In this document: piece by piece, positions 11,937-36,084 of the stretch
Position numbering within the stretch: the stretch's first letter is position 1
Layout of the letters: every line of letters starts with the position of its first letter
Source: Nocardioides sp.
GTDB taxonomy: Bacteria > Actinomycetota > Actinomycetes > Propionibacteriales > Nocardioidaceae
Assembly (NCBI GenBank): GCA_025965335.1
Contig: JAOPXC010000043.1
Location: 1-42,194 of the forward strand
Length of the DNA stretch: 42,194 bases
Reading direction: 5' to 3'
Position numbers and translations under genes: made by a program
Notes under the pieces: generated by a model
Seen by the model: the letters and a program-made list of their open reading frames with translations, nothing else
Told to the model about the DNA's origin: nothing
Database searches by the model: none

Positions 11937-12051
11937 GTCTGGATCCCCCTCGGGATGGACGAAAGCCCGGCACTCGCCTGGCATCCGGATCAATCTCGCA
12001 CCGTGGGTGATGACGGGTCATACCCAAGATCGGCCAAAGATCAGCTGGCCC

Positions 12052-12924
12052 TCATCGATATCCGTGGTCCGCGAGCGAATGTCCGAGGACCGACTCCATG
12101 GCGGATATGTCGTCCGGCGACAGGTCGTCGCGGAAGGCCTGCGCCCGTCCGGACGAGAAGCGGTAGCGGGCGAACTCCGCTGCGTACGGCGGCGTCCAGT
12201 CCAGGCCCACCCGGGCAAGGATCTGGCCCACCTGGTCGCGGGGATCGGCAACGAGGTCCTCGTAGCGGACCCGCACCCACTGGTCCTCGGGGACCCGCAT
12301 GCGGGCCTCGTCGTAGGCCTCCATGAGCAGCCGCCAACCCAGGGCGGCCAGCACCGGGAACGATCTGTCGTGCTTGCGCCAGAGCTCGTCCAGCGGCTCC
12401 GGCAGCGGCCCCAACAACCATTGCTCCGGACCGCGGTGCCCATCCCACCAAGGCATCTGGAGCCACGAGCTCGCCACCGCCCGGCCGTCGCGGACGACCT
12501 CCACGAACACCGCGTCCGGGAAGCACGCGCGCAGCAGGCCGGCCCGGGGCCACCCGGTGAGCTTGTGCAGGAAGACTGGCGCGCCCAGCCGCTCCGCCCG
12601 GTCGGCCACGAACCTGCGCATTCGGTCGCGGATCCAGGGCGTCGCGTCTGCCTCCGTCAGGTCGCGGACCGGGTCCACCAGCATCGGACCCACCTCACGG
12701 GAGAGGACCCGGTAGCCCTCGGACGGGGCGAAGCGGAGCCCGCCCTTGCGGGTCACCCGCGCGGGGAGGCGGCGCCAGGCTCGGTTCTGCCAGGCGGCGC
12801 TCCGGAGCAGCCCGCGGTCGTCCAGGTTCGTGATGAAGCCGGTCTGCTCGTGCCGGGCCAGGACCTCGTGCACCAGCGTCGAGCCACACCGGCCGGTGCC
12901 GAGCACGAAGACCGGTCGGCTCAC
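12052..12924 (-). CDS. Sulfotransferase family protein (1)
   Basis: N-terminal PAPS-binding PVFVLGTGRCGSTLVHEVL; 3'-phosphate-binding-like VVRDGRAVASSWL; RYEDLVADPRDQVGQIL. Confidence 0.88.
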   Translation of the reverse strand: MSRPVFVLGTGRCGSTLVHEVLARHEQTGFITNLDDRGLLRSAAWQNRAWRRLPARVTRKGGLRFAPSEGYRVLSREVGPMLVDPVRDLTEADATPWIRDRMRRFVADRAERLGAPVFLHKLTGWPRAGLLRACFPDAVFVEVVRDGRAVASSWLQMPWWDGHRGPEQWLLGPLPEPLDELWRKHDRSFPVLAALGWRLLMEAYDEARMRVPEDQWVRVRYEDLVADPRDQVGQILARVGLDWTPPYAAEFARYRFSSGRAQAFRDDLSPDDISAMESVLGHSLADHGYR

Positions 12925-13838
12925 GGCCGGTAGCCCATGGCCGTGAGCATGTCCTCCTGAAGAACGGTGGCGCGTTCGTAGACGTGGTCGTGCGACACCT
13001 GGCGGTTGCGATCCGGGAAGCTGAGGTGCTCCAGTGCCTGGTGCCAGCTCGGGTCGGCCCCGAGCCCGGCGAACTCCGCCACGTCCCCCAGCGTCTGGTT
13101 CGGCGCGGACACGAGATCCTCGTACGACACGCGGCAGACCCGCTCGGGCGGCAGGCCCGCCAGGCCGTACTCGATCAGGCCCACCTCACGGACCCAGTGC
13201 TCCGCCGCCGCGTCCACGGGGTTGTGGCCGGTGCGCGCCCAGTCGATCGGCGTCCCTTCCCACCACCACAGGTCGTGTTCGGGCCACCAGTCGACGTAGA
13301 GCAGCGAGTTGGCGACCGCCCGGCCGTCTCGGGTCACGGCCACGAACCGGGCTTCGGGGAAGACGGCCGCGAGCAGGGGGATGCGCAGGTTGTGCCCGAT
13401 CCGCTTGGAGATCACGACGTCACCGCCGGACGCCCGCGCAAGCCGACGGAAGTCAGCGCGCAGGCGAAGCTGCTCCTCGTCCGCGGACGACGCGGCTCCC
13501 GGGCGCAGCCCGCGCCGCTCGAAGACGGGCTCGCCCTCGACCGGCTGGGGGAACCAGCGCTCGAGCACCGAACGAGGGAGTCCATAGCGATAGGCCTCGT
13601 CACCCGCCTCGCCGAACCAGACCCGCTCGCGGGTCCGCGGGGCCATGGCGGCCAGCCGGTTCAGCGCAGCGAGCTCCGGGAGCGCCGGTAGCCGTCGACA
13701 GTAGTTGCTGATCCAGGCCGCGCGAGGGTGCAGGGCCAGGCATCGGTAGAGCAGGGACGTACCCGAGCGCGGGGCACCCAGCACAAACACCGGAGTGGAG
13801 TCCTTCGCCCTGTCCCGACTCGATGTTCGTGCGGTCAT
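12921..13838 (-). CDS. Sulfotransferase family protein (2)
   Basis: TPVFVLGAPRSGTSLLYRCLALHP; VAVTRDGRAVANSLL; VSYEDLVSAPNQTLGDVAEFAGL; 4-bp overlap with sulfotransferase 1. Confidence 0.9.
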   Translation of the reverse strand: MTARTSSRDRAKDSTPVFVLGAPRSGTSLLYRCLALHPRAAWISNYCRRLPALPELAALNRLAAMAPRTRERVWFGEAGDEAYRYGLPRSVLERWFPQPVEGEPVFERRGLRPGAASSADEEQLRLRADFRRLARASGGDVVISKRIGHNLRIPLLAAVFPEARFVAVTRDGRAVANSLLYVDWWPEHDLWWWEGTPIDWARTGHNPVDAAAEHWVREVGLIEYGLAGLPPERVCRVSYEDLVSAPNQTLGDVAEFAGLGADPSWHQALEHLSFPDRNRQVSHDHVYERATVLQEDMLTAMGYRP

Positions 13839-13965: not shown

Positions 13966-14087
13966 AGGACCGCGATCGCCGCACCAAACGCTGCCTAGCC
14001 TCCAAAGGGCGTCGAGCGGGGGATCAGATGCAAACTCCCCGCCGTCCTGCGAGACCAGAGAGCCGTGTGCATCCACGGAGCCGAGAC

Positions 14088-15050
14088 ATGCAACTCATGA
14101 CTGTTCTCACCCGGGCGGGTGCAGCACGCTGGTTGCTCCTCGTCGTGCCGCTGGTGGCCGTCGTCGCCACCATCGGCCTGACCTTCCAGCAGGAGCCCGA
14201 CCGGTCCACCCTCGCGACGGTCTCCGTGGTCGCACCCGAGGGCCAGAGCACCGCCGCCACCGTCAGCCAGTCCGTGGACAGCTTCCGCTCCGCCATCGTG
14301 TCCGAGTCCGTGGTCGAGTCGGCGAGCAACGACGCCGGGGTGGCCGTGTCCGCCAGTCGCGACATCAGTGCCACGCGGATCGGCACCTCGAACCTCGTCG
14401 ACATCACGGTGCACACCCAGGCTGGTGAGGATGCGGAGGCGCTGATCCGGGCGCTGGTCTCGAACACCAACGCCGTCCTGTTCTCCTCGACCCTGACCGC
14501 GGCGGAGACCCGGGCCGAGCGAGCCGCGAAGCGCTACGAGACCGCCCTGAAGGACCGCGCCAGCGAGACCCATCGCAGCGGCCTCGTGCTTCCGATCGAG
14601 TCCTATCGTGCCAAGGCCAGCGAGGTGACGCAGCTGCGGGTCGCCCTGGCCACGACCCTGGGCGACCCGGCCGTCGACCGCGCGGCGCTCGTGGGCCGGC
14701 TCGCCGAGGCGGTGCGCGTTCGCGACGCGATCGGCGCCAACTTGGAGACCTACGAGTCCGTGCAGGACGCGGTCGTGCGGACCAGGGCCGAGCAGGCAAA
14801 CGCGGCCCTCCAGCTCGACGCGGTCCAGACCCGCAAGGCGGCGGCCACGTCGTCGGAGTCCGTGACGATCTCAGACACCCATCCCCAGTCCCGACAGACC
14901 CTTCTGGTCCGCGCGGGCGTCGCTGCCCTGGTGGTCGGCCTGGGGGTCGGTGCCGGACTGGTCCTGGCAATCGGGCTGCTGCGAGAGGGCCGGCGCAACC
15001 GCAACGGCGTCGCGACTCCCGATCCGCCCGCTTACTCCCTGGTCGGCTGA
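14088..15050 (+). CDS. Wzz/polysaccharide co-polymerase-like chain-length protein
   Basis: Start MQLMTVLTRAG (ATG 14088); N-terminal TM (WLLLVVPLVAVVATIGL), long helical periplasm-type region, C-terminal TM (VGLGVGAGLVLAIGLL); no kinase domain; translationally coupled (TGATG) to a sulfotransferase. Confidence 0.7.
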   Translation: MQLMTVLTRAGAARWLLLVVPLVAVVATIGLTFQQEPDRSTLATVSVVAPEGQSTAATVSQSVDSFRSAIVSESVVESASNDAGVAVSASRDISATRIGTSNLVDITVHTQAGEDAEALIRALVSNTNAVLFSSTLTAAETRAERAAKRYETALKDRASETHRSGLVLPIESYRAKASEVTQLRVALATTLGDPAVDRAALVGRLAEAVRVRDAIGANLETYESVQDAVVRTRAEQANAALQLDAVQTRKAAATSSESVTISDTHPQSRQTLLVRAGVAALVVGLGVGAGLVLAIGLLREGRRNRNGVATPDPPAYSLVG

Positions 15051-16018
15051 TGGGCGCGGGATTCGACCCCACGCGGGTCCTGTACGTCGGCGGTACCGGC
15101 CGCAGCGGCAGCACCGTGCTGGCCAACGTGCTGGGCGAGCTCGAGGGCATGGTGAGCGTGGGAGAGGTCAGGTTCCTGTGGCAACGCGGGATCCTGCAGA
15201 ACCGACTGTGCGGCTGTGGACTGAGATTCGGCCAGTGCCCGTGGTGGTCCGAGGTCCTGGACCTGGCTCTGGGACCCGGCACCGATGCCGCCCGGGCGGA
15301 GCTGGCGGTCCGCACCCATCAGGAGCTGACCCGACGAACGCGCCTCCGGCAGCTGCCGACCGCGCTCGCATCCCATCGCCTGCGGGTCACCTTGCGGCCC
15401 GACGGCGAGCTGGAGGATGTGCTCGGCAGGGTCTACGCCGCCATCTCGGCGATGGCCGATGGCGCCGTCGTCGTCGACTCCTCGAAGCTCCCCACCTACG
15501 CGGCCATGCTCGCCACCATCGAGGACGTCGATCCGCACGTGGTGCACATGCTGCGGGACCCGCGCGCGGCGGCGTACTCCTGGCTCCGGAACAAGCACCA
15601 ACCCGATCTGGGTGCCGACGCCCGGATGGAACGGCGGAGCGCGGCCAAGAGCGCCGTCCTGTGGGCGGTGTGGAACCGCGCGCTCGAGACCCTGGTCTCC
15701 GACGTCCCGAACCGCTACGCCCGCATCACCTACGAGACCTTCCTGTCGCAGCCCGACCCGGAGCTGCGCCGGGTGCTCGAGGCCCTGAACCTGGAACCGT
15801 CCGCTCGTGACCTGGAGCGGGTCTTCGCGAACCCGCGGGGAGTGCAGCTCTCCACCAACCACACCGTCGCCGGCAACCCGGCCCGGCACCAGCACGGCCT
15901 GGTCCCGATCGTCCTCGACGACGAGTGGACCCGGTCCATGCGCGGGGTGGACCGGCGGGCGGTCACCGCGCTGACCCTGCCCGCCCTGCGGCACTACGGC
16001 TACCGTCTCGCCGGCTGA
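15050..16018 (+). CDS. Sulfotransferase family protein (3)
   Basis: RVLYVGGTGRSGSTVLANVLGELEGMVSVGEVRFLWQRGILQNRLCGCGLRFGQCPWW; VHMLRDPRAAAYSWLRNK; ITYETFLSQPDPELRRVL. Confidence 0.9.
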   Translation: MGAGFDPTRVLYVGGTGRSGSTVLANVLGELEGMVSVGEVRFLWQRGILQNRLCGCGLRFGQCPWWSEVLDLALGPGTDAARAELAVRTHQELTRRTRLRQLPTALASHRLRVTLRPDGELEDVLGRVYAAISAMADGAVVVDSSKLPTYAAMLATIEDVDPHVVHMLRDPRAAAYSWLRNKHQPDLGADARMERRSAAKSAVLWAVWNRALETLVSDVPNRYARITYETFLSQPDPELRRVLEALNLEPSARDLERVFANPRGVQLSTNHTVAGNPARHQHGLVPIVLDDEWTRSMRGVDRRAVTALTLPALRHYGYRLAG

Positions 16019-16025
16019 GGTCGTG

Positions 16026-17552
16026 ATGCGCGGTCGCCGGCGACGCCTCGGTGCCCGGCCGGACCACCGACGGCTGACCCGGTCGCACGCGCTCGTCGGG
16101 ATCCTGGTGGCGGCTCTCCTGGTGACGGGCACGGCCGCCGGCTGCTCCGGTGGACCGGGTTCCGGACCGCAGGAGCCAAACCCGTACTCCAGCGCCCTGC
16201 CTCCCCCAGCGGGACCGCACGGCGCCCCCGGCACCGGGGCCCTGGGGCTCAAGTGGAGCTGGTTCCAGCCCGACACGTTCGGGTACGTCCGCCGCCTCCC
16301 GGGGGGCTGGACGTTCACCGAGGTCGAGTGGTGCAGCGTCGAGCCGGTGCCGGGTGCCCGCGACTGGGCGGAGCTGGACCGGATCGTGGCGCAGGCCCGG
16401 GACCTCGGGCAGGCCACCATGATCAAGCTGCGGACCGGCCAGTGCTGGGGCACGACGCCGGATCAGGGAGGCGGGATGGACCTGAGCGAAGCCAGCCGCA
16501 AGACCCCGTCAACCCCGCCCACAGACCTCGGTGCCTACCTGAGTTTCGTCTCCGACCTCGTCACCCGGTACGCCGCGATGGGCGTGCACGCCTATGCCAT
16601 CGAGAACGAGATCGACGTCCAGAACTTCTGGGCGGCGCCGGTCGCGACGTACGACGCACTGGCCCGGGCGGTTGCACCGGTGGTGCACCAGGCGGACCCC
16701 CACGCCGATGTCCTGGACGCGGGGCTGTCCAGCACCGCCTACGGCGTCGCCCTGGCCAACGCGCAGCTGGACGCCGGCGACGAGGAGGGCGCGCTGGCCA
16801 CGTACCAGCTGCACTACGGCCGCAGGATGGCCGGCGGGGTCTCCCGGTGGCCGACGGTGTTCGACGCCACCGGCCTGCGGGAGGTGCTGGCCACCGAGCC
16901 GGCCCGGCGCAGCATCGACGCGGCCGAGCTCGCGGGCCGCCTGGTTCGCGACCGGGTCGTGGATGCCTACCAGCTGCACTTCTACGAGGGCACCGAGGCG
17001 CTGCGACAGGTGCTGGTGCACCTCGACGAGCAGCTCGGGGACACGGGCCGTGTCGAGGCCTGGGAGATCGGCACGGCCTGGCCGGGCGCCGACTTCGACG
17101 AGCGCGCGCATGCCGAAGAGCTCTTCCGGGACGCCGCGCTCCTCCTTGGCCACGGCGTCCGACTCATGGTCTACCTGCCGCTGGCGTGGACCGACGACGG
17201 CGGACCCCAGGTCTTCCGGGGCTTGATGAATGCCGACGGCACGTTGCTTCCCGCCGGTCGGGGTTGGCTGGCCCTGGCCGACGAGCTCCCCCACCTGGCG
17301 GACGCCAAGGTGATCACGTTGGGCGACCCCGGGGATCCCCTGGGCAAGGCGGGTCTCGTCGGGGTCGTCTGGAGCGGCGCCGGTCACTCCGCCGCGCTGG
17401 TGTGGGCGGTCGGGCCACCGGTGCAGCTGCCGGCCTCCGGTGTCGACCGGGTGCTGGACGCCACCGGTGCGGAGCTGGACCCGGACCTGCCGGTGGGCGA
17501 CCAGCCCGTGCTGGTGGTCGGGTCAGCGGTGCACCGCTTGACCTCCGGCTGA
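16026..17552 (+). CDS. Putative lipoprotein, clan-A-like (beta/alpha)8 glycoside hydrolase
   Basis: N-terminal hydrophobic segment and lipobox-like TAAGC; AYAIENEIDVQNFW resembles the GH-A acid/base NE motif; VEAWEIGTAWPG is a candidate nucleophile region; extended barrel-like fold. Confidence 0.65.
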   Translation: MRGRRRRLGARPDHRRLTRSHALVGILVAALLVTGTAAGCSGGPGSGPQEPNPYSSALPPPAGPHGAPGTGALGLKWSWFQPDTFGYVRRLPGGWTFTEVEWCSVEPVPGARDWAELDRIVAQARDLGQATMIKLRTGQCWGTTPDQGGGMDLSEASRKTPSTPPTDLGAYLSFVSDLVTRYAAMGVHAYAIENEIDVQNFWAAPVATYDALARAVAPVVHQADPHADVLDAGLSSTAYGVALANAQLDAGDEEGALATYQLHYGRRMAGGVSRWPTVFDATGLREVLATEPARRSIDAAELAGRLVRDRVVDAYQLHFYEGTEALRQVLVHLDEQLGDTGRVEAWEIGTAWPGADFDERAHAEELFRDAALLLGHGVRLMVYLPLAWTDDGGPQVFRGLMNADGTLLPAGRGWLALADELPHLADAKVITLGDPGDPLGKAGLVGVVWSGAGHSAALVWAVGPPVQLPASGVDRVLDATGAELDPDLPVGDQPVLVVGSAVHRLTSG

Positions 17553-18767
17553 GAGGCCGGTGCGGCGACGGGCCACCGCGCGCCGGTAGACCTGCTCGAG
17601 CAGATCGGTGGCGACCTCCCAGTCGTACCGTGCCCGAGTCTCGGCCTTGAGCTGGTCGGCCCCGGCCCGCAGGGTCGCCTCCGGAGTGTCCAGGCTGACC
17701 TGGAGCTCACGCACCAGGCCGGCCCGGTCCCCGGCCGCGAACACCGTTCGTCCGGGCCCCGTCCGGCCCAGCACCTCCAGGTGCGGCGGGATGTCGCTGG
17801 CGAGGACCGGGAGTCCGTACGCAGTCGCCTCGAGGAGCGCGATCGGAAGCCCCTCGAGCAGCGAGGGCTGCACGAACAGCCGGGCCCCCTCGAGCAGTCC
17901 CGCCAGCCGGGCGTCGTGCTGGTATCCGGTGAGCACCACCCGGGGGTCCCGCGCGGCGGCCCGGCGCACGCGGGCCATGTAGTCGTCGGTGTGGCTGCTG
18001 TCGCCGACGAGCACGAGCCGCAGGTCGGTGTCCACCTCGCGGTACGCCTCGACCAACAGCAGCGGGTCCTTCTCCGGCACCATCCGGCCGACGGCGACGA
18101 CGTACTTGCCGGGTTCGAGGCCGAACTCCGGTAGCACGGTCGGGTCGCCCGGGACCGGAACCGGCGACCCGTTTCCGATGTACGTCGTGTAGCGCCCCAT
18201 CTGGTCGCGATAGTGGTTCAGGAGGTCGCGCGAGACGACCACCACCTCGTCGGGCACGTGCGCCGACAGCAGCCTGCCGGTGCGCAGCACCCGCTGGGCG
18301 GGGCCGTTCCACTTGCTCCGCTGGTCGTCCAGACCGTGGATCGTCTGCACCACGGCGGCGGCCGTCAGGACCCGGGCGAACGGCGAGAACAGGCCGGGTC
18401 CGAGGGCATGGAAGTGCACCAGGTCGAAGTGCCGTCCGATCGAGGTCAACACACTCAGCCCGCTGTGCACCAGGGCCTCGCCGCCCGCGGCACTGATCGT
18501 CGGCAGCGAGGCGAGGTGGACGCCGTGGTAGCTGCGCACGAGTCGAGTCGAGTAGGCGGGTCGGCAGAACACGGTGACATCGTGACCACGAGCCGCCAGG
18601 CGCGTCGCCAGCTCCTCGACGTGCCGCTCGACACCGCCCGTTCGGGCCGGCAGGCCGCGCTGGCCGATCATCGCGATCCGCAGCGGGGGTAGACCAGCGG
18701 GGGGCGCGGCTCCGGGCGCAGCAGTGTGCGCGACCGTCGTGGGGCGACCGGGTTCGGTGATGCTCAT
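17523..18767 (-). CDS. GT4-family glycosyltransferase (1)
   Basis: Start MSITEPGRPTT (ATG 18767); IAMIGQRGLPARTGGVERHVEELATRLAARGHDVTVFCR; VAVGRMVPEKDPLLLVEAY; PSLLEGLPIALLEATAYGLPVLASDIPPHLEV (EX7E-type). Confidence 0.93.
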   Translation of the reverse strand: MSITEPGRPTTVAHTAAPGAAPPAGLPPLRIAMIGQRGLPARTGGVERHVEELATRLAARGHDVTVFCRPAYSTRLVRSYHGVHLASLPTISAAGGEALVHSGLSVLTSIGRHFDLVHFHALGPGLFSPFARVLTAAAVVQTIHGLDDQRSKWNGPAQRVLRTGRLLSAHVPDEVVVVSRDLLNHYRDQMGRYTTYIGNGSPVPVPGDPTVLPEFGLEPGKYVVAVGRMVPEKDPLLLVEAYREVDTDLRLVLVGDSSHTDDYMARVRRAAARDPRVVLTGYQHDARLAGLLEGARLFVQPSLLEGLPIALLEATAYGLPVLASDIPPHLEVLGRTGPGRTVFAAGDRAGLVRELQVSLDTPEATLRAGADQLKAETRARYDWEVATDLLEQVYRRAVARRRTGLSAGGQAVHR

Positions 18768-19999
18768 TCTCTCGCGCCTGCCTCTCGGTAGAGCTCGGTG
18801 ATCGCTTCGAGATGGTCCTTCGGGTTGTGCTCCAGCTCGGCCACGCGGCGCGCCGCAAGACCGCGCCGGCGGGACTCCACGGCGCTGCCCAGCGCCTCCC
18901 GCAGGGCGCCGCGAAGTGCCGGCACGTCGTCGGGCGGCACCACCCAGCCGGTCGTGTCGTCGACCAGCTCCGGGAGCCCACCGAGGTTGGTGGCCACCAC
19001 CGGGACGCCGAGGGCGAAGGCCTCCAGCACCGCGAGGGGCTGGTTCTCGTGCCACCGTGACGGGACGACGCACACCGCGGCCTCCCCCACCAGTTCCTGG
19101 AGCTCGGGCCGGCCCAGTCGTCCGTGGAAGCGCACCCGGCCCGGCGCCTCGGCGGCCGCAAGAGCCTCGAGCGCCGGACGTTCGGGGCCGTCGCCGGCGA
19201 CGTCGAGGAGGACGCCGGGAGGCAGGTCGAGCCCGGCGATCGCGCGAATCAGCGTGTCGATCCCCTTCTCGGGCGACAGTCGCCCGGCCACGACGGCGCC
19301 ACGTCGGACCGGAGCCCCGAACACGACGTCGAGCTCGGTGAAGTTCGGGAGCACCCGGACCCGGTCGCCGGGGATCCCGCCGGCCGTGACCTGCTGGGCC
19401 AGGAACCTGCTGGGCGCAACGAAGACCTGGACCCCGTCGTAGGCCCCGAACCAGCGGTGCAGGCTGACCTCGACGGCGGCAGCGGTGCTGGCCGCCCGGC
19501 TGCCGTCCTTGCACGCGCGCCGGACGGCCGGCCAGGGCGTGCGTCCCACGCACGCCGTGCAGATCTGGCCGTTGTCGAGGAACTGGTAGGTCGGGCAGAC
19601 CAGCTTGTAGTCGTGCATGGTGAGCACGATGGGGATCCCGCGCTGCCGGGCGGCATGCAGCACCGACGGCGACAGCTGGTGGTAGATGTTGTGGGCGTGC
19701 ACGACGTCGGGCCGGAACTCCTCGATCGCCTCGTCCATGCCGCGCCGCGCCGAGGTCGACCACACCATCCGGCCCAACCGGGCCACCTTCGCGGGAACCC
19801 CGGCCGGCGCCGGCTCGAACTCGACGTAGGCCGGCGGCCGGCCGGCGGAGGGCTGATCGTTGTCGGGATGCTCCATCCCGAAGTAGGCCACCTCGTGCCC
19901 GGCGGTCCGCTGGAGCGCGGCCAGGTCCAGGAGGTACCCCTCGGCGCCGCCGCGCCGGTACAGGAACTTGTTCACGTGGAGGATGCGCACGCGGCTCAC
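18764..19999 (-). CDS. GT4-family glycosyltransferase (2)
   Basis: GTG start at 19999 (VSRVRILHVNKFLYRRGGAEGYLLDLAAL); DVVHAHNIYHQLSPSVL; VVAGRLSPEKGIDTLIRAI; PSRWHENQPLAVLEAFALGVPVVATNLGGLPELV. Confidence 0.93.
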   Translation of the reverse strand: MSRVRILHVNKFLYRRGGAEGYLLDLAALQRTAGHEVAYFGMEHPDNDQPSAGRPPAYVEFEPAPAGVPAKVARLGRMVWSTSARRGMDEAIEEFRPDVVHAHNIYHQLSPSVLHAARQRGIPIVLTMHDYKLVCPTYQFLDNGQICTACVGRTPWPAVRRACKDGSRAASTAAAVEVSLHRWFGAYDGVQVFVAPSRFLAQQVTAGGIPGDRVRVLPNFTELDVVFGAPVRRGAVVAGRLSPEKGIDTLIRAIAGLDLPPGVLLDVAGDGPERPALEALAAAEAPGRVRFHGRLGRPELQELVGEAAVCVVPSRWHENQPLAVLEAFALGVPVVATNLGGLPELVDDTTGWVVPPDDVPALRGALREALGSAVESRRRGLAARRVAELEHNPKDHLEAITELYREAGARE

Positions 20000-22935
20000 C
20001 CCTTCCTTGTCGGCTGCCGGACGGGCCGGTTCGCGGATCGCGACATCAGGGCCCCTGAGGCCAGCGCAGCGCCCGTGCCCGCGATGCCCATCACGTAGAG
20101 GCCCACCACCACCTGGGACATCAGGTTGGCGACCAGGCACATCAGCACGTAGCCGGCCGCAGTGCCGGCGAAACCCACCGCCAACGCCCGGTCCGGGCCG
20201 GTGGTGCCGCGGGTGCGCCGAACCGCCCGGGCCGCGGTCGCCAGCAGCTGCCAGGTGAAGTAGAGGTACGCCGCCAGGCCGAAGATGCCCATCTCCACAT
20301 AAGCGCGCAGGAAGTCGTTGTGTGGTTGCTTTCCTTCGGCGGCCCGCGCCGCCACCTGCTTGAGACCGATGCCGGTCACGGGGCTGTCCGCCGCCAGCGT
20401 CAACGCCTCCCCCCAGTACTCCGCGCGCCACGTCAACGAGTTGCTGGGCTCGCCCCGCGACGTGGTGTCGTCGCCGAGGTCGGAGAAGCGGGTCGCCACG
20501 CCGGGGACGAGGGCCAGGAGCAACAGCAGCGTGACCAGCACGGTCCCGACCAGGCGTCGGCTGCGGGTCATCGCGACCACCAGCACGCCGACCAGGGCTG
20601 CGAGCCAGGCCGCCCTCGTGTAGGTCATGTACAGGCCGGCGGCGGTCGCCACCAAGCCCAGGACCGCCCACGCCCTGGGCCCCGGTCGCCGGAGGTGCAC
20701 GACGTGCGCGAAGGCCAGCACCACGAGCAGCGCGAGGAAGGCCGCCAGCGGGTTGGGGTGGGTGAAGGTGCCGCGCGCCCGACCGAAGCCACCGATCTGC
20801 AGCAGTCCCGTCCCGGACCAGGTCTGGTACGACGCGACGACCAGCGGGACCACCGCGGCGGCGAACACCGCGACGACGAGGTGCCGCCGGAAAGCCGGCC
20901 TGGACCCCAGCCGCTCGGCGACCAGCACCATCACGCAGACGCTCGCGAGGCGGGTCCACTCGACGAGCGCGGGCCAGTACGACGGGGCGACGAGCACCCC
21001 GACCAGGCCCGCTCCGGCGAAGCAGATCGCCGCCCAGCCGAGCGGGCTGCAGCGGACCCTGCCCTCGGCCACCCACTGGGTCGCCAGCCACACCGCCGCG
21101 GCACCCAGAAACAGCATCCCCAGCAGGGCCGCGGGTTCCAGCGGCGAGCCGGAATGGCCGAACTTGAGTGCGTCGAGCGACGTGCGGGCGACGAGCAGGG
21201 CCAACACGAATGCCTCGAACCGGGCCATGGCCAGGGCCAGGGCGATCCCGCCGGCGATCAGACCGACCGGTGCCACCAGGGCCACGGTGGACCCGTCCGT
21301 GACGAACGCCATGGACGTCGCGGTCACCGCCGCGGCTCCGACGACGGCCATCGCCGCGGTGCCCACGACAGATGTCGCGCCCGACTCCGCGCCGACCAGC
21401 CTTCTGGCCCGTTGCCCCGGGGCCGACCGGCGGAGCTCGACGGCGAAGTTCGCGAGCGCACCCCCGACCCCGGCCACCGCCAGCCGAAGGAGCCCCCCGC
21501 CGGGCAGCCAGTCTCCGGTGGTCCACAGCAGCGCGGCCACCCCCGCGCCGGTCAGTCCTGCGGTCAGTGTCCTCGCCACCCGGCGTGGCGGCACGTGCGG
21601 CATGCCGAGGTCACCACGGCGCAGGCAGATCCACGCGTGGACCACATTGACGACGTTGGCAACGACGTATGCCGCCGCCACACCGAGCACCGCGTAGCCG
21701 GTCCCGAGCAGCGGCAGCACGCACAGCGGGAGTGCGACCAGGTTCGCCACCGCACCGGCCAGCGAGTTGCGCAACGGCGTGCGGGTCTCACGCGTCGCGT
21801 AGAAGGGGAGGAGCAGCGAGCGCTGTACCGCTGAGGCGGGGAACGAGAGCGACAGCACCACGATCACGAGGCCGAGGAGTCGTGCGTCGTCCGGGCCGAA
21901 ACGGCCGATGCCGAACACCGTCTCGGCTGCGGGCACCGCCAGCACGAGACCCAGCCCGGTCAGGGGGAGCGACACGCTCACCATCAGTCGCAGCCCCAGG
22001 GAGCTCAGCCGGTCGACGGCCTGCCGGTCCCGGGTCGCGAAGGCGCGGGTGAGCCGCGGCAGCACGGCCACCATCACCGAGCGGAAGAACATGGTGCCTC
22101 CGACCGCCGACACCAGGCGGTGGGCGTAGTGCAGGACGGTGGCCGAGCCGGGAATCAGGAACGAGGCCACCGCCGTCTCCGCGACCCGGACCAGGGGGTT
22201 GAGACTGGCACCCACCGAGGGGCGTACCAGCAGGCGCACGAGGGTTGCGGCCTCGGCGTCGCGCGGTGCAGGGGCCGCGAACCGCAGGCCGCGGCGTACG
22301 GCGTAGAGCAGCATCAGGATGAACTGGACGGCCGAGCCGCACAGGAAGGCCACCGGCAGGATGCCGATGTCGCCCGTCCCCAGGACGATGATGGCCGCGG
22401 CGACCACGTTGAGGACGACGGTCATCGCTGCTGGTACGACGAAGAGGTGTCGCGCGTTCAGCCAGGCACGAAGCACCTCGCAGCCGGCCGTGAGCGGGAT
22501 CGTCCACACCATGACCCGCAGCAGCTCGGTGGCCAGCACGCGCTGCTCGGCGTGGAAGCCCGGCGCGGTGACGGCCACCAGCACGGTGCCGAACACACTG
22601 AACACGGCGGCCACGGCGGCGCCGAGCGTCAGCGAGGCGAGCAGCGTGGTGGTGACCAGACTGCGACCGCGCCGCCGGTCCAGCGTCGCCGACCAGGTCG
22701 TCATCGTGGGCACCAGCGCCTGGTTGCCGAGCAACATGAAGATCGCGGTGAGGGCGAGCGGGAAGCGCGCGGCGACCACGAACGCGTCGGTGTCCCGGCC
22801 GGCGCCGAAGGCCGCGGCCGCGACGACGTCGAGGAGCAGCCCGGTCGCCACCGCAACCGCTGCGGTGCCGCCGGTGAGCACCGACTGGCGGACGACCACG
22901 TCGTTGTCGGCGCGCAACCGGTGGGCGCTGTTCAC
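19996..22935 (-). CDS. Fusion protein: MurJ/Wzx-like flippase (N-terminal half) plus Wzy/O-antigen-ligase-like polymerase (C-terminal half)
   Basis: GTG start at 22935 (VNSAHRLRADNDVVVRQ). N half: VAAAAFGAGRDTDAFVVAARFPLALTAIFMLLGNQALVPTM... (MviN/MurJ-like). C half: GRARGTFTHPNPLAAFLALLVVL, YMTYTRAAWLAALVG, TGIGLKQ...QPHNDFLRAYVEMGIFGLAAYLYF (O-antigen ligase/Wzy_C). Single uninterrupted ORF. Confidence 0.9.
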   Translation of the reverse strand: MNSAHRLRADNDVVVRQSVLTGGTAAVAVATGLLLDVVAAAAFGAGRDTDAFVVAARFPLALTAIFMLLGNQALVPTMTTWSATLDRRRGRSLVTTTLLASLTLGAAVAAVFSVFGTVLVAVTAPGFHAEQRVLATELLRVMVWTIPLTAGCEVLRAWLNARHLFVVPAAMTVVLNVVAAAIIVLGTGDIGILPVAFLCGSAVQFILMLLYAVRRGLRFAAPAPRDAEAATLVRLLVRPSVGASLNPLVRVAETAVASFLIPGSATVLHYAHRLVSAVGGTMFFRSVMVAVLPRLTRAFATRDRQAVDRLSSLGLRLMVSVSLPLTGLGLVLAVPAAETVFGIGRFGPDDARLLGLVIVVLSLSFPASAVQRSLLLPFYATRETRTPLRNSLAGAVANLVALPLCVLPLLGTGYAVLGVAAAYVVANVVNVVHAWICLRRGDLGMPHVPPRRVARTLTAGLTGAGVAALLWTTGDWLPGGGLLRLAVAGVGGALANFAVELRRSAPGQRARRLVGAESGATSVVGTAAMAVVGAAAVTATSMAFVTDGSTVALVAPVGLIAGGIALALAMARFEAFVLALLVARTSLDALKFGHSGSPLEPAALLGMLFLGAAAVWLATQWVAEGRVRCSPLGWAAICFAGAGLVGVLVAPSYWPALVEWTRLASVCVMVLVAERLGSRPAFRRHLVVAVFAAAVVPLVVASYQTWSGTGLLQIGGFGRARGTFTHPNPLAAFLALLVVLAFAHVVHLRRPGPRAWAVLGLVATAAGLYMTYTRAAWLAALVGVLVVAMTRSRRLVGTVLVTLLLLLALVPGVATRFSDLGDDTTSRGEPSNSLTWRAEYWGEALTLAADSPVTGIGLKQVAARAAEGKQPHNDFLRAYVEMGIFGLAAYLYFTWQLLATAARAVRRTRGTTGPDRALAVGFAGTAAGYVLMCLVANLMSQVVVGLYVMGIAGTGAALASGALMSRSANRPVRQPTRKG

Positions 22936-23942
22936 CCGCGCCCCGCGAGGACCCGTCGAGCCGAGCGCTCGGCGGCCAGGCCGAGCTCGAGCTCCAGCTC
23001 GGTGCAGGCGGCACGCACCCGCAGGTCGAGGTCGCTCCGCCTCGGACGGCCGGCACGGCACTCGATGCCGGCCGTCATGGCCGGGGAGAACCGCATGCCG
23101 AGAAAGCGAGCCAGGATCTCCACCTCGGGCTCGGGATCGGCGACCACCCGGTCGTAGGAGACGAGGTGCACGTCGCGACGCCGGTCCAGACCCTGCTCGA
23201 GGTACAGGCGGTTGCGGACCAGCCAGAACAAGGCGGCCGCGGACACTGGGCTCAGCGTGGCGGGACGCAGCCGGCGGATCAGCTCAAGCGAGGACTCCGA
23301 GAGGCCGTGCGCCTGCCAGCGGCCGGCAGCGGTGCCGTCGGCTATCTCCGTGAGCACCCTTCGGTTCACGTCGCCGAACTTGTGCACCGCCGACCGGGCT
23401 CGGGCGTCGACGTCGCGATAGACCCAGACCGCCAGGGGGGCCGGGCCGTCGCTGGTCGCGACCGAGGTGAGCAGCTCGGCGGTGCGGTGACTGTCGCACA
23501 GCGGCTTGAAGAGCACGACCGCCGAGCGGCTCCGGGCGACCACTCCACGCACCACGTCGTCCTCACGCAGGCAGAACCGGTCGAAGACTCGACTGTCGTT
23601 CTCGTTGTGGGTCTCGACGGAGGGGTCCCGCTCGATGCCGCGCACGATCATGTTGGTGCCGGATCGCTGCACGCCGACGACGAACACCGCCCGGGCCGCG
23701 CCGGCGGGTACGCCGTGCTCGGCCCGCCATTGACGGGCGGCCCGGGCCGAGCGGAGGCGTTGTCTCGGATCGAGGTCGTCCTCCTCGACCAGCCGGGCCA
23801 AGCCGTCGTGACGGGCCCAGGCGACGTGCCGGTACACCCGGGCACGTAGCCGGCCGCCCGCGGCCCGGTCCTCGGGCAACGACCCGGTGCCGAGCTCCCA
23901 CGTCATGGCTCGGGCGAAGGACCTGCGTGAGCTCTGGAACAT
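22932..23942 (-). CDS. Sulfotransferase family protein (4)
   Basis: AVFVVGVQRSGTNMIVRGIERDPSVETHNENDSRVFDRFCL; VWVYRDVDARARSAVHKFGD; LVSYDRVVADPEPEVEILARFLG. Confidence 0.82.
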   Translation of the reverse strand: MFQSSRRSFARAMTWELGTGSLPEDRAAGGRLRARVYRHVAWARHDGLARLVEEDDLDPRQRLRSARAARQWRAEHGVPAGAARAVFVVGVQRSGTNMIVRGIERDPSVETHNENDSRVFDRFCLREDDVVRGVVARSRSAVVLFKPLCDSHRTAELLTSVATSDGPAPLAVWVYRDVDARARSAVHKFGDVNRRVLTEIADGTAAGRWQAHGLSESSLELIRRLRPATLSPVSAAALFWLVRNRLYLEQGLDRRRDVHLVSYDRVVADPEPEVEILARFLGMRFSPAMTAGIECRAGRPRRSDLDLRVRAACTELELELGLAAERSARRVLAGRG

Positions 23943-23966: not shown

Positions 23967-26861
23967 TCAGCTGACGGTGAAGGATCGGAAGGCGACCGTC
24001 GCGGTGTTGCCCGACGCATCGAAGGCGCGCACCTGGAAGCCGTAGGAACCTGCCGCCGCGGTCCAGTCCCGTGACCACGGCGTGTTGGCCGCGCCGGGCG
24101 AGGCCAGCGCCGCCGGCAGCCACCCGAACGCGCCCCAGGTGCCGTCGACCCGAAGCCACAGGTTGGTCGTCTTGTTCTTGATGGCGACGTCCACCGAGGC
24201 CATGGACCTGTCATCGGTGGCCAGTCCCGAGATGGCCGCACCGGACGCGGGCACCGTCGCGTTCGTGCCCGGGGCCAGCTGGCTCAGGGCAGGCGCCGTG
24301 GTGTCGGGCGGCAGGACGGTGGTGAGCGCGAACTCGCCCAGCACGGTCTGGACGGTGTTGGCGAGCACGTCGGTCGACCGGACGGCCACCTCGTAGTTCC
24401 CCGGAACCGGGTCCGCCCACGAGTAGCTCCACGCGGTGTCGGTGGTCGCGGGCTCGGACAGCGCGGTGGGCAGCCAGGCCGTGGTGGTGGCGAAGCTCCC
24501 GTCCGGCTGCAGGAACTGGCCGGTGCCCGCCTTGCGGACCCGCACCTCGACCGTCTGGACCCCGGTGTCGTCCAGGGCCTCACCCGAGATGACCAGCGGC
24601 GGCTCGATTGCGACGCTGCCGCCGGGGGCGGGGTTGAACAGCAGGGCGTCCGGCGGCTCCGTGTCGCTCGCGGACTCGGGCACGACGGTCACGTCGACCG
24701 AGGACACCGGAGTCGTGTTGCCGGCGACGTCGACTGCCCGGATCTCCGCGTGGTAGCGACCGGAGTACTCGACGCCGATGAAGCTCCAGGCCCAGGTCAT
24801 GTTTGTGCCGGTGTCACCCACCACGGGACTGTTCGCCCAGGTCTGGCTGGCCGACCAGGTCGAGGACGAGGCGTCGAACCACAGGCCGGTGTCCTGGTCC
24901 TGGACCGCGACCTGCACCCCCGCGACCCCGGTCTCGTCGGTCACCGTGCCCGCGTAGCGGATGGGTCGGGCCGGCACGTTGGCGCCGTGGCCGGGGTAGC
25001 CGACCGTGAGCGTCGGCGGCGGCCAGGCGGCGCCGCCGCGCGCCTTCGACGGGTCGAAGACGGTGATCCGGTCGTTGCCGGCGTCCGCGACGTAGATCAG
25101 CCCGGCCGCGTCGGCGGCGATGCCCGACGGGTTCTTGAACTGGTACGCGCCCTGCCCGAACCCGCCCCACTTGCCCAGGAAGGCGCCGGTGGTGGTGAAC
25201 GCCTGGATGCGGGACGCACTGTCGTCGGTGACGTAGAGGACGCCCTTGCTCACGACCATGTCCCAGATGTGCTTGAACTGGCCGTCGGCCGTGCCCGACG
25301 AGCCGAAGCTCGTGATCAGCGAAGTGCCGGTGGGGTTGTAGACGTAGACCTTGGTCGCGTCGGAGATGAAGAGGTTGCCGGTCGCCGGGTCGATGGCACC
25401 GCCGTGCTGGCCCGCGCGCGTGAACGAGGACAGCTCGGCGCCGCTGGCGGCGTCCAGGAGCTTGACCTTGTCCGAGTTGCGGTCGGTGACCATCGCCTTG
25501 CCGGCGTTGAACTCGATGTCCAGCGGCCACCGGAAGTGGCCCGGGGTGTTCGAGTCGATCTCGGCGTCGCCGAGCTGGTCGACGAACGTTCCGTCGTACG
25601 CGTAGCGCTTGATGTGGTGGCCGCGCTGGTTGGCCACCCACACCCGGTGGCTGACCGGGTCGATCCCGATGCCGCGCGGGTAGTTCATGCCGTACTCCGG
25701 GGACGCGCTCCGGGTGCCCCAGGTGCCGATGAACTCGCCGGTCGGGGCGAAGCGCTGGAAGCGCTGGTTCCAGGAGTCGGCGACCCAGATGTCGCCGGTC
25801 TCGTCGTCGACGTCGACGTCGCGCGGTTCGCCGAACTGGCCGGGGGTGGCCGGCTGTGCGGGCCGCGGGAAGTAGCCCGCGTCCGCGCCCTGCGCGGTGA
25901 ACACGTGCACCCGCGCGTTGCCGAACTCGGCGACGTAGAGGGTGCCGTCCGGCGCCACCGCGGGCTGCCGGGCACCGCCCAGGTTCAGCGCACCCACTCC
26001 GCCACCGCCGCCGATGCTTGACACGAGCTGGCCCTGCAGGTTGTAGACCTGCACCTGGCCGACCGTGGGGTCGGACACGTAGACGCGGTTCCTGGCGTCG
26101 TCAACGGCCATCCCGCGCGCGTCACCGTGCAGCGTGCCGGCGCCGTACGTCGCCTGGTAGGTGCCGGTGCCGGAGTACTTCAGGAGCCGGTTGTTGAACG
26201 TGTCGGTGAGCCAGATGGCACCGGTGGCGTCCACGTCGATGCCGTAGATGCGCGGGACCGTCGAGCTGGTGGTCCCCGGGGGCAGGACGTTGAACGTCCT
26301 GGTGTTCCTGCCGTCGGAGAGTCGCCAGATGCGCACCGCCGGCGGGTTGCTGGTGTTGTTGTTGAGGTAGTGGCTGTCGGCCTGGATCAGGTTGCCGTTG
26401 CCGTCGATGGTGATCCACGCCTGGTAGTCGATGTTGTTCAGCGTGAGGGCTTTGACGAACGTGCCGGTCTTTGTGTACTGCGCGACCTTGTTGGACACCG
26501 CGCCGTCCGCGATCTCGGGCACGTAGATGTCGCCGTTGCGGGGGTCGACCGCGATCGAGTAGGGCTGCCCGGTGGCGTTGGGCCGGTAGAAGGACCCGAG
26601 GATCTTGCCGCCGGGTGTGTACCGGCGGATCTGGTTGTTGAGGTAGTCCCCGACGATCACCTCGTTGCTGACCGGGTTGTACTGCGCTCCCCACGGGAAG
26701 ACCCCCGGCCGGCCGTTGCCGCCGACCGACCGCACGAACTGCGGGGTGGACCACGCGGCCTGCGCGGGTTGGGTGCTGCCGGCGACCACGACCAGTCCGG
26801 CCGCCGCCAGCACCAGCGGGATCAGTCGGGCAGCGGTCCGGCGAATCAGTCGGATGTCCAT
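23967..26861 (-). CDS. Secreted NHL-repeat protein with three C-terminal Ig-like domains (NHL protein 2, class A)
   Basis: Start MDIRLIRRTAARL (ATG 26861); signal peptide ending PAQA; FVRSVGGNGRPGVFPWGAQYNPVSNEVIVGDYLNNQIRRY closely matches NHL protein 1; about 12 NHL-like units by eye. Confidence 0.9.
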   Translation of the reverse strand: MDIRLIRRTAARLIPLVLAAAGLVVVAGSTQPAQAAWSTPQFVRSVGGNGRPGVFPWGAQYNPVSNEVIVGDYLNNQIRRYTPGGKILGSFYRPNATGQPYSIAVDPRNGDIYVPEIADGAVSNKVAQYTKTGTFVKALTLNNIDYQAWITIDGNGNLIQADSHYLNNNTSNPPAVRIWRLSDGRNTRTFNVLPPGTTSSTVPRIYGIDVDATGAIWLTDTFNNRLLKYSGTGTYQATYGAGTLHGDARGMAVDDARNRVYVSDPTVGQVQVYNLQGQLVSSIGGGGGVGALNLGGARQPAVAPDGTLYVAEFGNARVHVFTAQGADAGYFPRPAQPATPGQFGEPRDVDVDDETGDIWVADSWNQRFQRFAPTGEFIGTWGTRSASPEYGMNYPRGIGIDPVSHRVWVANQRGHHIKRYAYDGTFVDQLGDAEIDSNTPGHFRWPLDIEFNAGKAMVTDRNSDKVKLLDAASGAELSSFTRAGQHGGAIDPATGNLFISDATKVYVYNPTGTSLITSFGSSGTADGQFKHIWDMVVSKGVLYVTDDSASRIQAFTTTGAFLGKWGGFGQGAYQFKNPSGIAADAAGLIYVADAGNDRITVFDPSKARGGAAWPPPTLTVGYPGHGANVPARPIRYAGTVTDETGVAGVQVAVQDQDTGLWFDASSSTWSASQTWANSPVVGDTGTNMTWAWSFIGVEYSGRYHAEIRAVDVAGNTTPVSSVDVTVVPESASDTEPPDALLFNPAPGGSVAIEPPLVISGEALDDTGVQTVEVRVRKAGTGQFLQPDGSFATTTAWLPTALSEPATTDTAWSYSWADPVPGNYEVAVRSTDVLANTVQTVLGEFALTTVLPPDTTAPALSQLAPGTNATVPASGAAISGLATDDRSMASVDVAIKNKTTNLWLRVDGTWGAFGWLPAALASPGAANTPWSRDWTAAAGSYGFQVRAFDASGNTATVAFRSFTVS

Positions 26862-26872
26862 GGGTGGTCCCC

Positions 26873-29452
26873 TCATCCCGCGATCGAGAAGTTGCGCCAG
26901 GCCGGCTTGCCGGATCCGGTGGCCGCCTTGCCCGCGGTGTCAGTGATGTCGGTGGAGAACCCGTAACCGCCGGGGCTCTGGGTCGGGAGCTGGTAGCTCC
27001 ACGTCGTGGAGGTGCCGTTGGGGGTGCCCAGACTTGCGCTCACCTTGGTGGCGGTCGCCTGCCAGGTCGTGCCGTTCCACCAGAGGCCGCTGCTCTTCTG
27101 CTGGATCCCGAGCTTGACGCTCGCGACACCGGTGTCGTCGGCGGCGGTCCCGGTCAGTGTCACCGGGTTGGAGACCGTCGCGTTGTTGGCCGGCGCGGTG
27201 ACGGTGCCGGTCGGGGTCTGGGTGTCGCTGCCGCCTGCGACCGCGGTGAACGGGATCGACGGCCGCGGGGCCGCGCTCTGGTTGGCCGCCGCGTCGTCGA
27301 CCCGCAGCTGCATCAGGTAGCCACCGGACGCGGGCAGGGTGCGACTGAACGACCAGCTGCTGGCCGCCGCTCCGGGGGCGGCCAGCGTGGCCGGCACCCA
27401 CTGGAACGCACCGTAGGTGCCGTCGGTGCGCAACCAGGTGTTGGTGTCGTTGCGGCGCAGGGCGACGTACACGGTGCCGAGGGCGACGTTGTCGCTCGCC
27501 GTCCCGGTGAACGTGACCGGCCCGACCGGCAGCTCCTGGTTCGGGGCGGGCGTGGTGACCGTGCCGGTCGGGGGCGTGGTGTCGGGCGGGGTGCCGCCGA
27601 ACGTGTAGGTGCGGATCAGGTCCGCGTAGGTGTCGGCCAGGTACACCGTCCCGGTCGGACCGACCTCGACTGCGGCCGGGTGATGCAGGCCGGAGACGGT
27701 CGACTCGACGGTGCGGTCCGGCGCCATCACCACCATCTGGTTGTCGGCGCTGTCCGCGACGATCACGCGGCCGGTGGCGTCGACCGCGACCCCCTCGGGC
27801 TCGTTCAGGGTGCCGTTGGCGGTCCAGGACCGGACGAACGCGAAGCCCGCGGCCGCGGTGTAGCTGAGCTCCTGGATCCGGTTGTTGCCCCGGTCGGCGA
27901 CGTAGACGTGCCCGTCCGGACCGACCGCGACGCCGCTCGGCCAGCGGAAGTTGACGCTGGCCGTGCCCCGCGTGCCGAAGACGTGCGTCGGGAGCGGCCC
28001 CTTGTTGTCGGCCGGGAAGGCCGCGTTCGCCACGTCGTAGGCCTTGATCCGGTGGTTCTGGGTGTCGACGACGAACGCGAAGCGGTCGGACGACCGGATC
28101 GCGATGTCGTAGGGCCAGTTGAAGGACCGGGTGTCGGCGCCGGCGGGAAGGTTCTTCACGAACCCGCCCACGACCCCGGTGCAGTTGGGCGTCAGCACCT
28201 GCAGCTGGTGCTGCTTGGTGTCGGCGATCCACAGGTTCCCGTTCGCCGGGTCGACCGCGATACCGCGGGGCCAGTTGAACTGGCCGAGCTGGGTGCCCTC
28301 GGCCGCGCGCTCACCGCAGGTGCTGATCAAGTCACCGCTTGCGTTGAACTTCTGGAACTGGTGGTGGACGGTGTCGGTCACCCACAGGTCGCCATTCGGC
28401 GCGAACGCCATCCCGCGCGGCTCGTGGAAGATGGCCGTCGCGGTCGGCGCGGGCATCACCGTGCCGATGGTCCGGTTGTAGCTGAAGCCGGTGGGCGTGC
28501 GGTCCCAGCGCTCGATCCGGTCGCCCCAGAGGTCGGCCGCCCAGACGTTGCCGGTGCCGTCCTTGGCCACGGCGACGCGGCGCATGGTGGTGAAGGTGCC
28601 GGGAACGGTCGGTTCGTTGGACGTGCCGAAGGCGGTCACGAACCCGCCGGTGAGCGTGAAGACCTGGACCCGGTTGTTGAGCCCGTCGGCCACGTACACC
28701 AGTTCCTGGCCGGTGACCGGGTCGACGGCGGTGTCGACGCCGTAGGGCGTGCGGAACATGCCGTTCGTGGTGCCGGTGCCGCCCCACTTGGTGATGCAGG
28801 TGCCGTCGGGAGCGAACTTGACGATCTCGTTGGTCTTGTACCCGGCCACGTAGATGTTGCCGGCGCTGTCGGCCTGCGCGTCGCGGTTGTCGCTGATGTT
28901 GCCGCAGCCACCGTTGGCGACGACGGTCTGGGTCACCGCCAGCGACAGGTCGAGGACCACGACGCGGGCCCGGCCGGTGTCACCGACGTACACCTTGGAT
29001 CCCTTGACGGACACGCCGAGGGGGAACGAGAACGGGGTCGCGGGACCGATGGTCTCCCCCAACCACGCGCCCGTGGGCGAGAGCTTGACGATCCGGCTGT
29101 TGCGTGTGTCCGCGACGTAGACGTTGTTCGACGCGTCGATGGCGACATCACGCGGGTTGTCGAACTGACCGGTGCCGGCGCCGAACGTACCGACCGACCA
29201 GACCAGCGTTCCGTCGGCGTTGTAGCGCGCCACCCGGTTGTTGCCGGTGTCCGCGATGACCACGGTGCCGTCGGGCGCGGTCGCGAGACCCGAGGGGTAC
29301 ATCTCGGCGTGCAGCGGACCCCCGATCGTCCCCTGCGGGAGCGTGTCCGCGGTGCTGCTCGCCGCGAGTCCGGCCGTCAACGCGGCCACGAGGCCGATCG
29401 CCGCGACAACCGCGAGCCGGCGCCTGGTCCTGGTCACCATTGGATTCCCCAT
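26873..29452 (-). CDS. Secreted NHL-repeat protein with two C-terminal Ig-like domains (NHL protein 3, class B)
   Basis: Start MGNPMVTRTRRRL (ATG 29452); IGGPLHAEMYPSGLATAPDGTVVIADTGNNRVARY; about 12 NHL-like units; ends in Ig-like repeats (FTGTASDNVALGTVYVALRRNDTNTWLRTDGTYGAF). Confidence 0.9.
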   Translation of the reverse strand: MGNPMVTRTRRRLAVVAAIGLVAALTAGLAASSTADTLPQGTIGGPLHAEMYPSGLATAPDGTVVIADTGNNRVARYNADGTLVWSVGTFGAGTGQFDNPRDVAIDASNNVYVADTRNSRIVKLSPTGAWLGETIGPATPFSFPLGVSVKGSKVYVGDTGRARVVVLDLSLAVTQTVVANGGCGNISDNRDAQADSAGNIYVAGYKTNEIVKFAPDGTCITKWGGTGTTNGMFRTPYGVDTAVDPVTGQELVYVADGLNNRVQVFTLTGGFVTAFGTSNEPTVPGTFTTMRRVAVAKDGTGNVWAADLWGDRIERWDRTPTGFSYNRTIGTVMPAPTATAIFHEPRGMAFAPNGDLWVTDTVHHQFQKFNASGDLISTCGERAAEGTQLGQFNWPRGIAVDPANGNLWIADTKQHQLQVLTPNCTGVVGGFVKNLPAGADTRSFNWPYDIAIRSSDRFAFVVDTQNHRIKAYDVANAAFPADNKGPLPTHVFGTRGTASVNFRWPSGVAVGPDGHVYVADRGNNRIQELSYTAAAGFAFVRSWTANGTLNEPEGVAVDATGRVIVADSADNQMVVMAPDRTVESTVSGLHHPAAVEVGPTGTVYLADTYADLIRTYTFGGTPPDTTPPTGTVTTPAPNQELPVGPVTFTGTASDNVALGTVYVALRRNDTNTWLRTDGTYGAFQWVPATLAAPGAAASSWSFSRTLPASGGYLMQLRVDDAAANQSAAPRPSIPFTAVAGGSDTQTPTGTVTAPANNATVSNPVTLTGTAADDTGVASVKLGIQQKSSGLWWNGTTWQATATKVSASLGTPNGTSTTWSYQLPTQSPGGYGFSTDITDTAGKAATGSGKPAWRNFSIAG

Positions 29453-35873: not shown

Positions 35874-35973
35874 GGGCGGCTGCCTGTGGTGGTCCGGAAG
35901 TCGCGCATGACTGAGCGACTCGCCCATCCTCGGGAGGGGGTCGGCCGTGCGAGCCGCGCGGCCGGACCTTTCG

Positions 35974-35983
35974 CCAAATTTGG
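35974..35983. promoter_or_regulatory. AT-rich palindrome CCAAATTTGG in the NHL-operon/LCP divergent promoter region
   Basis: Perfect 10-bp palindrome in a GC-rich intergenic region about 100 bp upstream of each start codon. Confidence 0.3.
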
Positions 35984-36017
35984 TCATGGCCGTCTGGGCG
36001 TGGCCTCGCAAGGGGTG

Positions 36018-36048
36018 ACCACTATTGGTGAGATTCGCGGGGCAAGGG
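36018..36048. promoter_or_regulatory. Conserved motif copy 2: ACCACTATTGGTGAGATTCGCGGGGCAAGGG, between the NHL operon and the LCP gene
   Basis: 26/31 identical to 4447-4477; arms ACCA-CTAT-TGGT preserve the inverted repeat by paired changes. Confidence 0.6.
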
Positions 36049-36084
36049 TTCCGGATCGTCGATTCGCCGCCGATGGTCCTTGAC

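Follow-up and report, generated by a model that had tools for sequence, protein, structure and literature searches.

The described systems closest to the gene reported here are the lipid II flippase MurJ/MviN (PF03023; structures 7wax, 6cc4 and 6nc6), the Wzx flippases (for example WzxE, 9g9m), which usually belong to PF01943 (Polysacc_synt), and the Wzy polymerases and WaaL O-antigen ligases (PF04932; 7tpg). A Wzx-Wzy-Wzz complex has been proposed from complementation genetics, in work cited by PMC10030265, whose discussion still treats the super-complex as a proposal. The PCP-2A protein Wzc, which combines a co-polymerase with a tyrosine kinase (PMC7310880), is a precedent for fusing consecutive components of the Wzx/Wzy machinery, although its partners are a regulator and a kinase and not a flippase and a polymerase. 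No report of a Wzx-Wzy fusion was found in open-access text, and annotation databases may contain the architecture unremarked. Here we describe a 42,194-nucleotide stretch of DNA from Nocardioides sp. (contig JAOPXC010000043.1 of assembly GCA_025965335.1; hereafter the window), in which a single gene, at 19996-22935 on the minus strand, encodes a 979-amino-acid protein with both a flippase-type and a Wzy-type domain. We consider it likely that this protein combines a Wzx-like flippase with a Wzy-type polymerase, and that it serves the probably sulfated exopolysaccharide of the surrounding Wzx/Wzy-type locus.

A preliminary description of the window had proposed that flippase-type and Wzy-type proteins are combined in one polypeptide encoded at these positions, without naming the strand. 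The open reading frame is real and lies on the minus strand, where it runs from a GTG at 22935 (whose overlap with the stop codon of the sulfotransferase gene upstream reads GTGA) to a TGA ending at 19996, with 979 codons plus the stop and no internal stops; the plus strand over the same interval is interrupted by stops. Both halves match their proposed families well above the Pfam cut-offs: PF03023 (MurJ) on residues 40-443 (21607-22818, minus strand; E 7e-54, 183.6 bits against a cut-off of 27.4) and PF04932 (Wzy_C) on residues 760-891 (20263-20658, minus strand; E 3.8e-23, 82.4 bits against 31.7), and each half scanned alone scores in the same way as in the full chain. The Wzy motifs quoted earlier are also present (GTFTHPN at residue 722, YTRAAW at 772 and PHNDFLRAY at 871). 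An AlphaFold2 model built from a 21-row alignment (mean pLDDT 82.4) contains two confident bundles, corresponding to a 14-helix half at about residues 1-504 and a Wzy half at about residues 547-979, separated by a poorly predicted linker at residues 505-546. These predictions indicate a complete flippase followed by a complete Wzy protein, with the linker between them in the cytoplasm. The linker maps to 21298-21423 (minus strand), in agreement with the junction at about 21400 given in the preliminary description; the single-polypeptide claim itself is borne out by hidden Markov model (HMM) matches, by predicted fold and by retention of the fusion in a second species.

That second species, Nocardioides sp. 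SR21 (G009), is an independent isolate in which the protein is likewise encoded by one continuous frame, 60% identical to the window fusion (with a genome-scan match over residues 10-960) and flanked by the same neighbours. Between the window and SR21, changes at the junction are concentrated at codon position 3, and the linker, including its hydrophobic segment at residues 518-543, aligns at 50% protein identity over codons 515-549. In the window, GC content at third codon positions is 0.78-0.97 in every 40-codon window across codons 401-660, unbroken over the junction. In a third Nocardioides genome, G113, the two halves (56-59% identity) are read in different frames, and the TGA that closes the MurJ frame shares bases with the GTG that opens the Wzy frame. 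Exactly at this boundary (L021, position ~1515; G113:C6, ~650800) lies a run of seven G, where a one-base difference would merge the two into one open frame of 980 codons, and it is uncertain whether the apparent split is real, a sequencing error or a site able to slip. Separate genes in orthologs had been named in the preliminary description as a sign that the frame results from an assembly error; such genes are found in G113, with the reservation imposed by the G run, and not in SR21. The separate, overlapping frames of G113 and the fragmented state of the window assembly (459 contigs) could be taken to mean that two genes have been run together into a single frame by a sequencing or assembly error, but SR21 carries the same fusion with the linker helix kept, and the suspicious G run belongs to the split genome and not to the window. 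We therefore rejected the artefact, which is scarcely credible.

The MurJ-type fusion is lineage-specific, being restricted to a few genomes of the genus: both halves are present in only three of 221 Nocardioides genomes (the window genome, SR21 and G113), and no further fusion appeared among 298 genomes of the family. The order in which fusion and split occurred differs between trees of the two halves, the Wzy tree grouping the window with SR21 (84/86) and the MurJ tree grouping SR21 with G113 (82/80). A plasmid search with the fusion protein returned matches to the MurJ half only, none spanning most of the query.

The linker consists of an Arg-rich stretch followed by an extra hydrophobic helix (residues 518-543), all predicted with AlphaFold confidence below 50. 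Both termini of MurJ are cytoplasmic (PMC4790310). An Arg-rich linker fits a cytoplasmic MurJ C-terminus, and the extra helix, identified by hydropathy, would then be the equivalent of the segment with which it aligns in stand-alone Wzy relatives from two other genomes (G238 and G662), namely their first, N-terminal hydrophobic one. The split G113 proteins lack a counterpart of this segment. Joining the G113 frames would place the start of the Wzy part on the cytoplasmic side without the extra helix, a poor fit to the positive-inside rule, and the missing helix thus mildly favours a real split. The Arg-rich, low-confidence character of the linker, together with the apparently separate proteins of G113, would also accord with a gene fused in DNA whose protein is cut, or whose C-terminal half is also translated separately, leaving no physical coupling. 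Conservation of the hydrophobic segment in SR21 speaks against this alternative, as does the lack, by inspection, of an obvious ribosome-binding site and start near the junction, and we regard it as improbable.

The N-terminal half had been described as lipid-II-flippase-like, which holds for its fold and family but probably not for its substrate. Foldseek matched this half of the model, most of which is confident, to inward-closed and inward-occluded structures of E. coli MurJ (best match 7wax, TM-score 0.86 on the target), as expected for the 14-helix MurJ-type bundle of the MOP superfamily. Its score against the NCBIfam MurJ equivalog TIGR01695, however, was 185.9 bits, below the cut-off of 235.55. 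Residues R18, R24, R52, D39 and R270 of E. coli MurJ are essential by mutation (PMC4790310; R18, R24 and R270 also PMC9973255). The equivalents of D39 and R270 are kept in the N-terminal halves from the window, SR21 and G113, but the full set is not: R18 and R24, in transmembrane helix 1 (TM1), are replaced by V/V/L and L/L/L, respectively, and R52, which like them falls within TM1/TM2, is replaced by T/V/T (window/SR21/G113). Each of the three genomes also encodes a separate canonical MurJ with a better Pfam score than the fusion half; that of the window genome lies on another contig, adjoins a kinase-like gene and keeps R18 and R24.

Since MurJ is the best family for this half and D39 and R270 are retained, one might suppose that it is a second lipid II flippase and that the fusion feeds peptidoglycan synthesis. 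We find this very improbable, as the TM1 arginines kept in canonical MurJ are lost from all three orthologs, the window protein misses the equivalog cut-off, each of the genomes has another, higher-scoring MurJ, and the neighbouring genes are those of an exopolysaccharide locus. The loss of R18 and R24, along with the presence of a separate canonical MurJ in all three genomes, indicates that the N-terminal half is probably not a lipid II flippase. No match to PF01943 was found in the fusion protein or elsewhere on the window contig, so that no flippase other than the MurJ half was seen at the locus. This half is most likely a MurJ-branch flippase that acts in place of a Wzx and moves the exopolysaccharide repeat unit. 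The protein resembles Wzx in locus context, presumed job and superfamily fold (9g9m ranks 50th among the fold matches), and differs in belonging to the MurJ branch instead of PF01943 and in being joined to a polymerase; it differs from MurJ itself in carrying an appended second enzyme. On this reading, the MurJ branch, known mainly for its role in peptidoglycan, seems to have been reused for an exopolysaccharide. In related families of the order, a separate clade of MurJ-like paralogs (L007-L020) keeps R24 and R270 and has a Gln near the R18 position.

The C-terminal half belongs to the Wzy/WaaL superfamily, with a Wzy_C domain, Thr-Arg and His-Asn motifs and a fold matched by Foldseek to WaaL (7tpg; E 5.7e-5, TM-score 0.60 on the target). 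This fold match rests on the model, since a PDB sequence search with the C-terminal half gave no match. Unlike known Wzy and WaaL proteins, this half is attached to a flippase, and its assignment as polymerase or ligase is not settled by sequence, as PF04932 spans both activities. The same fusion could thus contain a ligase, either WaaL-like or an O-linking oligosaccharyltransferase, that would transfer completed glycans to an acceptor from their lipid carrier: the closest fold match is a ligase, there are weak matches to the O-linking oligosaccharyltransferase TfpM and to RfaL, and the large secreted proteins encoded alongside could serve as acceptors. On the other side, the contig encodes no Wzy_C protein besides the fusion, and the locus also has a priming transferase and a probable co-polymerase; in addition, to our knowledge, neither an outer membrane nor a lipopolysaccharide core is expected in Nocardioides. 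We therefore think a ligase unlikely, and the locus context favours a Wzy-type polymerase.

These data are consistent with a mechanism in which cytoplasmic enzymes would assemble a repeat unit linked to undecaprenyl pyrophosphate, which would be flipped by the 14-helix MurJ-type half and then, on the outer face, added to the growing chain by the attached Wzy half under control of a Wzz-like co-polymerase. The covalent link would hold flipping and polymerisation side by side in 1:1 stoichiometry. The preliminary description suggested that a fusion would channel repeat units straight from flipping to polymerisation; such direct hand-over is plausible. We infer the flipped substrate, polymerase activity, hand-over and physical coupling from sequence, context and models.

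Several points weigh against this proposal. Its support is wholly computational, and the placement of the two bundles relative to one another in the model is unreliable (linker pLDDT below 50, pTM 0.65). R52 is also absent from the canonical MurJ of the window genome and from related MurJ-like proteins, leaving only R18 and R24 to discriminate. The C-terminal half may also be translated separately from an internal start. Finally, with the MurJ-type fusion in only two of the 221 congeneric genomes and a probable split form in a third, covalent linkage may be dispensable in the Nocardioides lineage.

Flippase-polymerase fusions are not confined to Nocardioides. Among the matches listed in a phylum-wide search for Wzy_C, two lay in frames of about 1000 amino acids (family f24), both with a PF01943 flippase followed by Wzy_C; the phylum-wide count, drawn from the best Wzy_C matches listed, is a lower bound. 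In another actinobacterial order, that of genome G321, the Polysacc_synt-Wzy_C fusion occurs in three genera and five of 42 genomes, with 52-71% identity along almost the whole protein and with stops only at the C-terminus (L063:3868-6873, minus strand; L064:3032-5989, minus strand; L075, L076 and L077; all ~1000 amino acids). The upstream neighbour in L063 has AAA_31/GNVR (Wzc-like) domains. An apparent internal stop in the fusions of G772 and G773 proved to be a single TGA, the C-terminal stop. Long Wzy_C frames in G447 and G516 are not fusions but GC-rich read-through, the upstream part overlapping other genes (by inspection).

These proteins share with the Nocardioides fusion an N-terminal MOP flippase, a C-terminal Wzy_C domain and a length of about 1000 amino acids, but their flippase is of PF01943 and not MurJ type. 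Because the flippase families differ, the fusion has arisen at least twice independently, and this recurrence suggests that flippase and polymerase operate together as a single unit. That fusions arose at least twice in Actinomycetota, with two flippase families, because one physical unit flips and polymerises with direct hand-over is a tentative explanation, to which we give somewhat less than even credence. If it is true, the fusions are natural, covalently locked versions of the genetically proposed Wzx-Wzy complex. Independent fusion with two flippase families is good circumstantial evidence for Wzx-Wzy contact, hitherto argued from genetics, and the fusion offers a single polypeptide of fixed stoichiometry in which the coupled reaction could be studied structurally and biochemically. 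In G113, a second Wzy_C gene (G113:C6:474585-476932) lies close to a Polysacc_synt flippase gene, the two being apparently adjacent.

By gene content, the window carries a complete Wzx/Wzy-type exopolysaccharide locus, with a priming transferase, glycosyltransferases, flippase, polymerase and, by predicted fold, a co-polymerase. Immediately upstream of the fusion is a sulfotransferase gene (22932-23942, minus strand; Pfam Sulfotransfer_1/_3), and downstream are two GT4 glycosyltransferase genes (18764-19990 and 17523-18767, both minus strand); further sulfotransferases are encoded at 15050-16018 (plus strand) and 12921-13838 (minus strand). The sulfotransferases suggest that the product is a sulfated polysaccharide. 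The product of 14028-15050 (plus strand) has two transmembrane segments around a large middle domain and only a sub-threshold sequence match to Wzz; since its model (pLDDT 72) finds its top fold matches in Wzc, KpsE and Wzz, it is a probable polysaccharide co-polymerase. The priming phosphoglycosyl transferase is encoded at 6847-8319 (minus strand; PF02397 E 7e-65, TIGR03025 above cut-off), and a LytR-CpsA-Psr (LCP) family glycopolymer transferase at 36025-37125 (plus strand).

The three sulfotransferases, the two GT4 enzymes, the 14028-15050 gene, a possible hydrolase and the large secreted NHL/Ig proteins occur in a gene order that the window shares with SR21 and G113; in each, the first sulfotransferase lies directly upstream of the flippase gene. 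The possible hydrolase (16023-17552, plus strand) is a putative secreted glycoside-hydrolase-like lipoprotein with sub-threshold GH44/GH42 matches only and an N-terminal hydrophobic segment ending in Cys; this conserved, probably secreted protein may trim the exopolysaccharide and belong to an enzyme family not yet described. The exopolysaccharide genes are flanked by genes for four very large proteins that combine NHL beta-propeller repeats with bacterial Ig domains (8487-11993, 23967-26876, 26873-30757 and 31221-36092, all minus strand); two other species encode the 23967-26876 protein at 75% identity.

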